Positions 12,503 to 48,775 of a stretch of 64,000 bases of DNA are shown piece after piece (position 1 is the stretch's first letter; each line of letters opens with the position of its first letter). The translations under genes were made by a program, and so were the position numbers. Where the stretch lies: positions 1 through 64,000 of the forward strand of contig DATJQV010000024.1 of NCBI GenBank assembly GCA_035505375.1. The letters are read 5' to 3'. The notes beneath the pieces are model-generated. The model saw only the letters and a list, made by a program, of their open reading frames with translations. It had not been told where the DNA came from and did not search any database. The DNA comes from a bacterium. GTDB lineage: Bacteria > Hydrothermota > Tepidihabitantia > Tepidihabitantales > Tepidihabitantaceae.

Positions 12503-14299
12503 ATGACATTCTATCTAACAATCTTGTTGACGACAGTGGCGCCCCTGCAGCCAGCGTTGAACATGAGAAGGGTCGCAGATCTGCCGTTCGGTCCGCTCTA
12601 TTACCGCGTCGTTTGCTGCGATAGCGACCACGACAGCTTGCCTGAGATCATGTTCAACGGTCTCCTGGAGTCCGGCTATCCATGTCTTGAGTTCTGGGAA
12701 CATCAGGGCTGGAATCGCTTCAGACTCGTCTACGCTGACACCGGTACGTACCCACCGCCTAATGGCATCTCGACCTGGGCTGCGATTCCCTACGACGCTG
12801 GTGACCTCAACGGAGACGGGCTGACCAGTGTTGTGTGTACCAATGTCGCGTACTTCAACCCGGACAGCGTGCGCGACATCGTCATGACATTGGAGAGCCC
12901 GGACAGCTTCAGCTATCCTACCAGGCTTTCATGGTACTACCGAAGTCATAGCGCCTACTCGGGGGATTTTCCTGCGTACATCGTACGCGACCTCGACCAC
13001 GACGGGCACAACGAGATCGTCGGCTGGTTGGAAGACAAGGGCACGTGCATCTGGAAGAACTTCGGTCACGACCAGAATGAGCTGAAGTGGACCGGCGACC
13101 TCCAGGGCGTAATGCTCAACTTCCGCGACTTCGACGGTGACGGGAAGATGGATATCGCCGTTGGTCCGTCGGGTGATGTTTGGGAGGATACCGGCAATTG
13201 CCAGCCTGAGTTGATCTGGAACAACACGTTCGGGTGGCTCGATGGCAATGACGCTTGGTCAACTACGGATATTGATGGCGACAGCAGACCTGAGTTCTAC
13301 ATATCGTACTTCGACTACGCATTGCACAGAATGTACCTGTGCATGTACCAGAGCGACGGCAACGGCGGTTTCACTCACACGCTGGCGGATTCCCTGACTT
13401 ACATCGGCACCGACGACTGGGGCCGAGCCAGCGCCGGCGGCGACATTGACGGCGACGGCGTTGACGAGTGCATCTGGACCACGTACGACAGCGTACGGGT
13501 GTACAAGGCATTCGGCCACAACGACCTGCGTAAGGTCTGGGAATGGCAGAGCGACCACCATCCACCCGGGTACAACGCGCTCTACGCCACGGTTTACGAC
13601 GTGAACAACGACGGGTACAACGAATTGCTTCTCGCGGGCAACTCGAAGATATCGATATTCGAGGTCGATGCGATAGACCTGCTGTCGCCAAATGGCGGGT
13701 GGTATCACGTCGGCGACACCATGCACATACGCTGGAAGACAAATCTGCCGCCACAGTGCAGTACGGTATCGCTGTTTGCGCGACTCGATACTCTCGGGCA
13801 CATGAGACCGATAAGGGCTCTGCTCTCACCCACTGACTCGCTCTGCGACTGGATTATCCCGCAGGACATGCCCGAGAGCATACGCATCGTGGCCATGGCG
13901 TACGGTCCTGGCGGCAAGCGGCAGTTTGACATGTCGGACAGCGCCGTGTGGATCCTTGGCGGCTACGGCGTGGCGGAGGGAACTCACAAGGTGCCGCTGC
14001 AATGGTCGCTTTCAGTCAGTCCGAATCCAGCCCGAGGCGCGTTCTCGGTGCGCTACGAGGTACCGGACTTGGGACACAATCCCAATTCCCTGGCGGAATT
14101 GGGTTATGTCCCGCGTCCTGTGTCCCTCGGCGTGTACGACGCTGACGGCAGGCTGGTAAGGTCACTGCGTCAAGGCAACGCTACGCCGGGCCGGTACGAG
14201 GCCAAGCTGCCTTCGGGTGCTCTTCCTGCCGGAATCTACTTCCTTCGTCTCGACGCGCCGGGATTCCGAGTGGTGAAGAAGGCGGTTGTGACGAGGTGA
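12503..14299 (+). CDS. Secreted FG-GAP/VCBS-repeat protein with sorting domain
   Basis: 598 residues. A short N-terminal hydrophobic stretch precedes a series of Ca-binding-type loops: DSDHDSLPEI, DLNGDGLTSV, DLDHDGHNEI, DFDGDGKMDI, DIDGDSRPEF, DIDGDGVDEC and DVNNDGYNEL. These mark FG-GAP/VCBS repeats that form a seven-blade propeller. An Ig-like segment (DLLSPNGGWYHVGDT) and the common sorting domain (SVSPNPARGAFSVRYEVP…GIYFLRL) follow. Within the sorting domain a 16-residue insert starting DLGHNPN is encoded by a palindromic element (14068-14112); removing it restores the family-like VRYEVP-RPVSLGVYDADG. An AGGAG site precedes the ATG. Likely surface-exposed; function unknown. Confidence 0.85.
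   Translation: MTFYLTILLTTVAPLQPALNMRRVADLPFGPLYYRVVCCDSDHDSLPEIMFNGLLESGYPCLEFWEHQGWNRFRLVYADTGTYPPPNGISTWAAIPYDAGDLNGDGLTSVVCTNVAYFNPDSVRDIVMTLESPDSFSYPTRLSWYYRSHSAYSGDFPAYIVRDLDHDGHNEIVGWLEDKGTCIWKNFGHDQNELKWTGDLQGVMLNFRDFDGDGKMDIAVGPSGDVWEDTGNCQPELIWNNTFGWLDGNDAWSTTDIDGDSRPEFYISYFDYALHRMYLCMYQSDGNGGFTHTLADSLTYIGTDDWGRASAGGDIDGDGVDECIWTTYDSVRVYKAFGHNDLRKVWEWQSDHHPPGYNALYATVYDVNNDGYNELLLAGNSKISIFEVDAIDLLSPNGGWYHVGDTMHIRWKTNLPPQCSTVSLFARLDTLGHMRPIRALLSPTDSLCDWIIPQDMPESIRIVAMAYGPGGKRQFDMSDSAVWILGGYGVAEGTHKVPLQWSLSVSPNPARGAFSVRYEVPDLGHNPNSLAELGYVPRPVSLGVYDADGRLVRSLRQGNATPGRYEAKLPSGALPAGIYFLRLDAPGFRVVKKAVVTR
14068..14112 (+). repeat. In-frame palindromic element, copy A
   Basis: CTTGGGACACAATCCC at the start and GGGTTATGTCCC at the end form an inverted repeat. 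The inner stem CCCAATTCC pairs with GGAATTGGG around the loop CTGGC. It lies in the FG-GAP gene and adds 16 codons with no frameshift. Copies B (25456) and C (47983) share the frame and outer arms but have different, still paired, inner stems. Confidence 0.85.
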
Positions 14300-25257: not shown

Positions 25258-26394
25258 TCAGACTATGGTAAGCTCAGTCTGCGCGTCGAAGAGGTGAAGG
25301 TGGTCGGGCGTGAAGCCGACCGTCACAGAATCGCCGGGGCGCGGCGCGTCCTGTGGCGGAACGCGGGCGATGAGCGAGTTCTCGCCGGCCTTAAGGTAGA
25401 CAATAACCTCGTTACCCATCTGCTCAACCACGTCGACCACGGCATTCAGCACCGGCTTGGGACACGATCCGGAATCCTCAACCGGATTCCGGTCATGTCC
25501 CTGCGCAGTCCCCACTTCTCCGAGCACGAGTCCTTCGGGTCTGACACCAAGCACAACCGGCTTGCCTCTCGCCGGGGCCAAGCGATCGGTGAGCGTAGGG
25601 CCAAGTTCGAGGCGAAACGAGTTGTGGGAGAAGCTAAGCGGGGTCTGGTCGTCGATCCGGCCGAACAGGAAGTTCATCGGCGGTGAACCAATGAAGCCGG
25701 CAACGAACTTGTTCACCGGCCGGTTGTACAGCGTCATTGAGTCGGCGACCTGGAGGAGTCGGCCATCCTTCATTACACCGATGCGCTGGCCCAGTGTCAT
25801 CGCCTCGACCTGGTCGTGGGTTACGTAGAAGACCGTGGTTTCGAGTTGACGGTGGATGCGGGCGAGTTCGGTGCGCATGCCCACCCGAAGCTTGGCGTCG
25901 AGGTTGGATAGCGGCTCGTCGAACAGGAAAACCTTGGGGTGGCGCACGATTGCCCGGCCCAGTGCTACGCGCTGACGCTGGCCGCCGGACAGGGCCGCGG
26001 GCTTGCGGGAGAGCAGGTCGGTGATGCCGAGAATCCGCGCCGCCTCGTCGACCCGCGTGCGGATTTCCTCCTTCGGCACCTTGCGAAGCTTGAGCGCAAA
26101 AGCCATGTTCTCCTGCACCGACATGTGCGGGTACAGGGCGTAGTTCTGGAAGACCATGGCGATGTCGCGGTCACGCGGCTCGACGTCGTTGACCATCCGG
26201 TCGCCGATGTAGATTTCGCCTGAGGTCGGTTCCTCAAGCCCAGCGACGAGGCGAAGGGTAGTGGATTTGCCGCACCCGGACGGGCCAACCAACACGAAGA
26301 ACTCCTTGTCAGCGACCTCGAACGTGACGTGGTCGACTGCGACAACGCCCTTGTCATACAACTTGGTGAGGTCTTTGAAGCCGACTCTGCTCAT
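25258..26394 (-). CDS. MalK/UgpC-type sugar ABC transporter ATPase
   Basis: 378-residue cytoplasmic ATPase that powers sugar or glycerol-phosphate import. Walker A GPSGCGKSTTLRL, Q-loop MVFQNYALYPHMSVQEN, signature LSGGQRQRVALGRAIV, Walker B VFLFDEPLSNLDAKLR and the switch His in YVTHDQVEAM are intact. The C-terminal TOBE-type regulatory domain (VVLGVRPEGLVLG… VVDVVEQMG) is interrupted near residues 303-318 by QGHDRNPVEDSG…, encoded by palindromic element copy B; related proteins run from one side to the other without such an insert. No permease or binding-protein gene is next to it, which is typical for shared ATPases. Confidence 0.92.
   Translation of the reverse strand: MSRVGFKDLTKLYDKGVVAVDHVTFEVADKEFFVLVGPSGCGKSTTLRLVAGLEEPTSGEIYIGDRMVNDVEPRDRDIAMVFQNYALYPHMSVQENMAFALKLRKVPKEEIRTRVDEAARILGITDLLSRKPAALSGGQRQRVALGRAIVRHPKVFLFDEPLSNLDAKLRVGMRTELARIHRQLETTVFYVTHDQVEAMTLGQRIGVMKDGRLLQVADSMTLYNRPVNKFVAGFIGSPPMNFLFGRIDDQTPLSFSHNSFRLELGPTLTDRLAPARGKPVVLGVRPEGLVLGEVGTAQGHDRNPVEDSGSCPKPVLNAVVDVVEQMGNEVIVYLKAGENSLIARVPPQDAPRPGDSVTVGFTPDHLHLFDAQTELTIV
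25456..25501 (-). repeat. In-frame palindromic element, copy B
   Basis: On the plus strand CTTGGGACACGATCC at the start and GGTCATGTCCC at the end are the outer arms, and CCGGAATCC pairs with GGATTCCGG in the inner stem. It lies inside the ABC-ATPase gene, read from the opposite strand to copies A and C, yet still in frame. It keeps GH followed by D, as in copy C. Confidence 0.85.
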
Positions 26395-47776: not shown

Positions 47777-48775
47777 GTGCAGTCTCAGCTCAGTCAAGAC
47801 GGCGCCGACTTCCGCGCGGACGTGAAGCGGATATGGGACGAGTTCCGGCGCAGCGAGGGCTCGGCCGGCGACCGCTCCGCGTTCGGCAACTCCGAGGGCG
47901 GCAGCGTCGAGCAGCAGCGCGACCGGAGGCTTCAGCTCCATCACTGCGCCAACTATGCGGCGGTGCTGGCGGTGCTAAAGAGCTTGGGACACGATCCGAA
48001 AACCGAGGAGGATTTCGGTCATGTCCCTTCGCTTCGGCTGCTCGAACTTGGCTGCGGCAGCGGCGTGCTCACGAGCGCCCTCGCCCGCGTGATGCCGGAG
48101 GGCTGGACCATCGAGGCGACCGACTACTCCGAGCACCTGCTCGCCGGCGCAAGGCAGCGCTTCGAGTGCGACGGCCTGAGCTTCAGCCTTCTCGACGCGC
48201 GCACTCTGCGGCCGGAGCGGCTCGAAGGAATAGACGCCGTGCTCCTGCTGGAAGTGGTTGAGCACCTTCCAGCGGACGAAGCCGAAAGGCTTCTGCGACA
48301 GGTCTACGACGCGCTGCCCGGCGGCGGCATGATGGTGCTGACCACTCTCGACCGCGCCGCCTTCCCGCGTCCGTTCTCCGGGTACGCGCCGCACCACGTC
48401 GAGTACACCTACAGCTCGCTCGACCGGTTCCTGGCGGACCGGAGGCGCAGCCCGTTCGAAGAGTACAGCCTGTTCCGACTGACATCCGAGCGCATCGTAT
48501 CCGAGTCGGTCAGGAACGAGCAACGTGGCGGCTACCTGCTGAACCGGCTGCAACGGGCGATGCATGGCCTGGGTCGCCGCCATCCCAGGTTCGGTGTGCT
48601 CCGTGGCTGGGTGGAGTCGCGGCTCTTCCAGCTCTATTCGCTGCTGCCCGACCACGACGGGTTCGACTTCGACGGATACCTTGCCACGCTCGACTTCGTT
48701 CAGTCCGAGCCGGAGCTGCACGACCACGATTCGTTCGGCCTTGTCGCGGTCCTGCGCAAGACCGGCCGTGAGTGA
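47777..48775 (+). CDS. SAM-dependent class I methyltransferase
   Basis: 332 residues. SAM-binding motif I LELGCGSGVLTSAL and a following motif II Asp in IEATDYSEHLL; LLLEVVEHLPADEAERLLRQ fits the UbiG-like Methyltransf_11/23 group. The C-terminal region (HHVEYTYSSLDRFL … LFQLYSLLPDHDGFDFDG) is not diagnostic. Directly before motif I, residues 70-85 (LGHDPKTEEDFGHVPS) are a 16-codon insert from palindromic element copy C; without it the text runs AVLAVLKS-LRLLELGCGSG as in typical proteins. Start GTG 47777. mtnA begins one base after its stop. Confidence 0.85.
   Translation: MQSQLSQDGADFRADVKRIWDEFRRSEGSAGDRSAFGNSEGGSVEQQRDRRLQLHHCANYAAVLAVLKSLGHDPKTEEDFGHVPSLRLLELGCGSGVLTSALARVMPEGWTIEATDYSEHLLAGARQRFECDGLSFSLLDARTLRPERLEGIDAVLLLEVVEHLPADEAERLLRQVYDALPGGGMMVLTTLDRAAFPRPFSGYAPHHVEYTYSSLDRFLADRRRSPFEEYSLFRLTSERIVSESVRNEQRGGYLLNRLQRAMHGLGRRHPRFGVLRGWVESRLFQLYSLLPDHDGFDFDGYLATLDFVQSEPELHDHDSFGLVAVLRKTGRE
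47983..48027 (+). repeat. In-frame palindromic element, copy C
   Basis: CTTGGGACACGATCC and GGTCATGTCCC are the outer arms. The inner stem CCGAAAACC pairs with GGATTTCGG with one mismatch around the loop GAGGA. The inserted unit reads 48 bases (47984-48031), 16 codons. Confidence 0.85.

Follow-up and report, generated by a model that had tools for sequence, protein, structure and literature searches.

A dispersed palindromic hairpin lying in frame in bacterial genes is probably a REP-like element mobilised by RAYT transposases

A short palindromic element interrupts three unrelated genes of a 64-kb stretch of bacterial DNA (hereafter the window) without breaking their reading frames. We infer, with a probability of roughly 0.7, that it is a REP-like, non-autonomous single-strand DNA hairpin mobilised by HuH/Y1 transposases of the RAYT (TIRYT) group. 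We favour this REP-like reading because the element shares a terminal motif with these transposons, lies beside RAYT genes in several genomes and co-occurs with them across genomes.

A preliminary description of the window, made from sequence alone, had reported three copies of the element, each in frame in an unrelated gene. All three copies were found, and the host reading frames run open through them over 598 (FG-GAP), 378 (ABC) and 332 residues (methyltransferase). The copies and their hosts are as follows.

14068..14112, + strand: element copy 1, CTT followed by the core GGGACACAATCC-CAATTCC..GGAATTG-GGTTATGTCCC; core at 14071-14112 (42 nt), with the A/T version of the R/Y pair; peptide in the FG-GAP protein LGHNPNSLAELGYVP
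25456..25501, + strand: element copy 2, CTT followed by the core GGGACACGATCC-GGAATCC..GGATTCC-GGTCATGTCCC; core at 25459-25501 (43 nt); peptide in the ABC ATPase QGHDRNPVEDSGSCPK, read from the opposite strand
47983..48027, + strand: element copy 3, CTT followed by the core GGGACACGATCC-GAAAACC..GGATTTC-GGTCATGTCCC; core at 47986-48027 (42 nt); peptide in the methyltransferase SLGHDPKTEEDFGHVP
12503..14299, + strand: FG-GAP repeat protein, host of copy 1 (Pfam FG-GAP_3)
25258..26394, - strand: ABC transporter ATPase with MalK-type OB fold and TOBE, host of copy 2 (Pfam ABC_tran, OB_MalK, TOBE_2)
47777..48775, + strand: class I SAM methyltransferase, host of copy 3 (Pfam Methyltransf_25 and others, residues 85-203; start codon provisional)

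Copy 1 sits in the C-terminal part of the FG-GAP protein, for which in-frame residence is read from the open frame; a related gene on contig C84 (L045) has the same A/T version and similar flanks. Copy 2 lies inside the C-terminal TOBE region of the ABC ATPase, which has 15 additional residues at this site compared with three relatives (L186, L187, L189), and copy 3 lies directly ahead of the methyltransferase domain, where the protein is ∼12-13 residues longer than its element-free relatives; both length differences are approximate at the level of the junctions. The same loops are occupied in other ways in related genomes: in G059 the ABC gene carries one copy nested inside another and the methyltransferase copy is read in a different frame than in G000 (the window's genome), while in G058 the methyltransferase holds a nested copy, partly resolved. 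Such loops are repeatedly hit or tolerant.

The two motifs originally proposed as common to the copies are present, but the shared part is longer than these. The invariant core is GGGACAC-R-ATCC ... GGT-Y-ATGTCCC, read as a 5′ motif, a variable arm, a loop, the complementary arm and a 3′ motif. As a hairpin it comprises six pairs, a C·A mismatch, two pairs of which the first is the R-Y pair, a bulged T, two C-G pairs and a variable inner stem. Folded as single-stranded DNA, all three window copies form the hairpin (z = -4.6, -5.5 and -5.6 against dinucleotide shuffles), with mismatches in the inner stem of copy 3. In an alignment of 41 distinct copies, 98.2% of the pair cells are standard, compared with 83.7% in shuffles, and 91 cells are changed on both sides, compared with 30 ± 4 in shuffles, which bears out the earlier claim of covarying stems; pairing is destroyed once one strand is slid by a base. 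Since just two cells of this alignment are G·U pairs, pairing seems, from the sequences, to be held at the DNA level. The R/Y position was read in 131 distinct copies, 112 with G-C, 18 with A-T and one mispaired, and the A-T version is found in several phyla. The C·A mismatch and the bulged T are invariant in the 41 aligned copies, both being within the search pattern and so partly selected for, and are constant across phyla, while the inner stem is hypervariable yet paired. Bases outside the core vary by genome: WOR-3 copies have CTT..GCG flanks, and copies elsewhere have other bases, which often lengthen the palindrome, with pairing of 47-87% at every one of the first nine positions.

The 3.6 Mb genome contains 41 occurrences of the 15-base motif CTTGGGACACRATCC and 0 of the reversed pattern, and the covariance search that the preliminary description had suggested, using a model built from 41 distinct copies, recovers 62 copies at E ≤ 0.001 with cores mostly of 39-43 nt. 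Inverted-pair neighbours are rare, with 2 of the 62 copies having a neighbour within 250 bp. Across 65 genomes of the window's class the element is found solely in 12 of the 18 genomes that make up the window's own family, and all six genomes of the window's genus carry it, at 13-62 copies each. The preliminary description knew of no such sequence in other phyla, but MAGs from at least eight phyla contain exact matches, with one genome scanned per species; the labels among the matches listed include WOR-3, Aminicenantes, Acidobacteriota, Armatimonadetes, Deltaproteobacteria/Thermodesulfobacteriota, Bipolaricaulota, Alphaproteobacteria, Actinomycetes and Clostridiales. Twenty-nine genomes from the matches listed hold 1-95 copies each, and contamination may account for those with a single copy; every genome is a MAG or was handled as one. 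With just 7 matching stretches in viral contigs, phages seem unlikely to be the main vehicle. One 37.6 kb IMG/VR contig classed as viral, IMGVR_UViG_3300033144_003540 (L359, L362), carries three copies. No published description of the element sequence was found in the literature searched.

The window's own genome has five Y1_Tnp genes. Partner RAYT clades were surveyed within the window's family, whose RAYTs lie between terminal repeats that begin with GGGAC, each clade having its own type (GGGACACTTCCC, GGGACAG.., GGGGACGCTACCC or GGGGACA[CT]AATA). The clade with the last of these types (clade D, support 99/96) unites L058, from the window's genome, with the RAYTs of L079, L112 and L167, and in these three alphaproteobacterial genomes the element lies 0-70 bp from the RAYT genes. 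Clade D termini match the two ends of the element over 9-10 bases: in L252, L255 and L259, for example, GGGACACAAT on the left and GGGACATAAT on the right correspond to GGGACACRAT and (reverse complement) GGGACATRA in the element. At these three loci and at L310 the two termini differ, as C/T, at the base that forms the element's C·A mismatch, an asymmetry present in four of the eight transposons with both ends read, the other four being symmetric. RAYT presence equals element presence in 17 of 18 family genomes (Fisher p = 3.8 × 10⁻⁴, uncorrected for kinship); every RAYT-bearing genome of this family (f1) has elements, and six of its seven RAYT-free genomes are without them. Y1_Tnp is also found in 26 of 29 element-bearing genomes of other phyla, a figure we left out as evidence because Y1_Tnp is common regardless, being present in 48 of the 65 genomes of the window's class. 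L058, a protein of 226 aa with HVH and Y...NP motifs, has a single PDB match, TnpArep 4er8 (E = 0.002), and Pfam finds Y1_Tnp alone in L058, L112 and L252, with Bac_DnaA_C only in L218, a member of another clade.

Some observations would sit well with a palindromic repeat family moved by another enzyme (a DDE transposase, an integrase or an IS200-type TnpA), as supposed for MITEs, with convergence on GGGACA producing the likeness to RAYT ends. No readable RAYT in the window's genus or family is directly flanked by the palindrome, the TIRs there sharing just the first 9-10 bases with it, and G085, a MAG, has 11 elements and a single short IS200-like Y1 protein. Such an origin is nevertheless unlikely given the RAYT adjacency in three genomes, the co-occurrence of element and RAYT within the family, the common 9-10 base ends with their C/T difference, and the lack of visible target-site duplication at the aligned alaS and C73 insertion sites described below, where local divergence limits the view. 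Also counting against RAYT mobilisation, no Y1_Tnp was found in the element-bearing MAGs G071, G079 and G082, other kinds of RAYT are common in class genomes that have no element, the C/T asymmetry is confined to half of the transposons with both ends read, and a GTAG foot is absent. Among further RAYT loci, L059 (G000:C6) is a pseudogene resembling L058, with an in-frame TAG and flanked by a duplicated GGGGACACAATACTT end, and in the Aminicenantes loci L307 and L311 a RAYT is flanked by a longer palindromic terminal repeat, GGAGACACAATACCTATTTCCC..., which may be a related hairpin type.

Reading frames at individual loci were assessed from codon usage in the 300 bp on each side of 57 copies. 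Where both sides are clearly coding on one strand, the frame is kept in 16 of 20 distinct copies (binomial p = 2.5 × 10⁻⁵ against 1/3); the window copies fall below the strict coding threshold, although their best frames still agree on both sides. Of the 16 in-frame copies, seven are translated from one element strand and nine from the opposite one, with five frames in use across both strands. The constant parts are stop-free in five of six frames, and the frame that holds a TGA is seen only in copies where the host frame changes. Hosts of in-frame copies include alaS, RtcB, a molybdopterin subunit of NADH-quinone oxidoreductase type, a metallo-beta-lactamase fold protein, a TldD-like protein and an HpcH-type aldolase; other copies lie outside genes, at gene edges, or are unclassed. 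Because copies also lie between genes, in-frame residence is likely to be what survives rather than a targeting rule.

Empty sites in relatives give the size of the insertions. The alaS gene holds three copies, all in frame, of which two (cores 42 and 40 nt) are absent from congeners at ∼80% DNA identity, with a net of exactly 45 bp each. The third is common to L326 (G059) and amounts to 51 bp net against L325, while in the alaS of G058 (L324) its site is occupied by a different, GGGACAG-type palindrome. At a C73 site the net is 54 bp against L337 and L339. All four nets are multiples of three; they come from alaS and this one C73 site, with junctions good to a few bases, the second C73 site having aligned too poorly. 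Together with the ABC and methyltransferase genes, these loci agree with the earlier expectation that the additional residues would be missing from element-free relatives. At the C73 site, L338 carries a copy in the opposite orientation and with a different inner stem relative to L335:525-564, which reflects either independent insertions at one site or an inversion. A second palindrome family, GGGACAGTCCC...GGGACAG (L324, L018, L202), occupies the same sites as, or is nested inside, element copies. The genome also contains an unrelated dispersed repeat of ∼100 bp (G000:C75:44880, 45614 and 40577; C40:15592; C81:258736 and others; query L029, reverse strand 2783-2882).

These loci also bear on two other accounts of why the element persists. 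If it were an insertion of the Rickettsia palindromic type, spread and kept for its encoded peptide, in-frame copies in essential genes and the occupation of the same loop in congeners would be expected, and both are seen. However, the peptide varies with frame and strand, even between the orthologous methyltransferases of G000 and G059, and many copies lie outside genes or at gene edges. Since five frames and both strands are used, no peptide is selected, and we reject a peptide-level role as extremely unlikely. A functional structured element, whether an RNA hairpin, a regulatory site or a protein-binding site kept by selection, would suit the core that is invariant across phyla and the strong covariation, but the in-frame copies are found on either host strand, in five frames and in unrelated genes, and are missing in close relatives. 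With almost no G·U pairs and no Rfam match in the window, function at the RNA level is disfavoured, and we regard this account in general as very improbable.

According to the RAYT/TIRYT reading, the fixed part of the element (GGGACAC-R-ATCC, GGT-Y-ATGTCCC, the C·A mismatch and the bulged T) would be the recognition foot of the transposases, with its two strands corresponding to the left and right transposon ends. The transposase would bind the folded single strand, with the mismatch and bulge telling the strands apart, cleave next to the foot and join the hairpin to DNA elsewhere, while the inner stem, unread by the enzyme, could drift yet stay paired. Gene insertions would survive if they add a net length divisible by three, are read in a stop-free frame and fall in a tolerant loop, and copies in essential genes would be in frame because only such insertions survive. 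Recognition, cutting, joining and the upkeep of paired stems are steps that we infer; copies nested within copies were also counted for this reading.

REPs and their TnpAREP/RAYT transposases are known in E. coli and Stenotrophomonas (PMC8266576, PMC2817692), and E. coli TnpAREP requires a bulged REP hairpin (PMC8266576). Like REPs, the element is a short, imperfect hairpin dispersed in many copies; it carries a conserved mismatch and bulge, a trait of group 2 REPs, and is associated with a Y1 HuH transposase. Its 62 copies with cores mostly of 39-43 nt are in keeping with 20-40 bp palindromes present in many copies. It differs in that its flanks have no constant GTAG/GTGG or CGTC tetranucleotide, that it is mostly single, without the frequent inverted pairs of BIMEs and REPINs, and that a 21-base invariant core is common to at least eight phyla. 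For the flanking of a RAYT gene that marks a REPtron the picture is mixed: the element flanks RAYT in L079, L112 and L167, but it is not seen at the readable RAYTs of the window's family, and in the window's genus it usually does not lie beside one. Because the GTAG foot and the paired arrangement are absent, we have not filed it as a REP. REPs that keep the frame of a gene have been described before, in R. conorii and within tnpAREP genes among other places; certain REPs reside in genes, those of subclass 2.4 inside the transposase gene with the frame intact (PMC6006769).

TIRYTs and the TIRtron, with GGGGWSAS ends, were described by Di Nocera 2013 (PMC3733652), and in a later survey no REP-like hairpin was seen to accompany the matching subclass 2.1 (PMC6006769). 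The terminal motif GGGGACAC is common to TIRYTs and the element, such TIRs also border the RAYTs of the window's family, with a distinct TIR for each subtype, and some TIR repeats are, like the element, self-complementary and dispersed. The element is instead a free-standing hairpin that joins a left-end-like and a right-end-like foot. With respect to the whole GGGGWSAS motif the agreement varies: GGGACAC is present by search definition, and outside the window's genome 53 of 90 copies have a fourth G directly before it; in the window's genome this base is T. The C-terminal helix-turn-helix of subclass 2.1 is absent from the element-linked RAYTs (Pfam on L058, L112 and L252).

The preliminary description had likened the element to the Rickettsia palindromic elements (RPE-1 and others, cited in PMC3733652). 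The likeness is sound for residence, these too being palindromes in frame in functional, even essential, genes, and the comparison is one of residence, not of sequence. As closest relatives they are not supported: the element differs in its transposase link and wide taxonomic spread, and the terminal motif, RAYT adjacency and co-occurrence point to REP-like elements. We know of no mobilising enzyme for RPEs.

The novelty lies in a REP-like variant that is without a GTAG/CGTC foot, occurs mostly as single copies and is linked to a kind of transposase for which REPs are reportedly absent. As a tentative and rather doubtful extension, a single recognition foot may have carried one and the same hairpin family across eight or more phyla, with the inner stem (and in most phyla the outer arms) rewritten yet paired, which would imply stem regeneration by templated synthesis during movement; the family, repeatedly adding ∼15 residues to loops of essential proteins, would then be a natural generator of in-frame protein insertions. 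An abundant hairpin family is here tied to a RAYT/TIRYT group whose relatives reportedly have no REP-like hairpins, and it offers a natural, cross-phylum data set on what such enzymes recognise, namely a constant foot and a free stem. Small mobile hairpins can repeatedly lengthen essential proteins such as alanyl-tRNA synthetase without loss of frame, and ∼15 unexplained residues in proteins of uncultured bacteria can be a mobile element.
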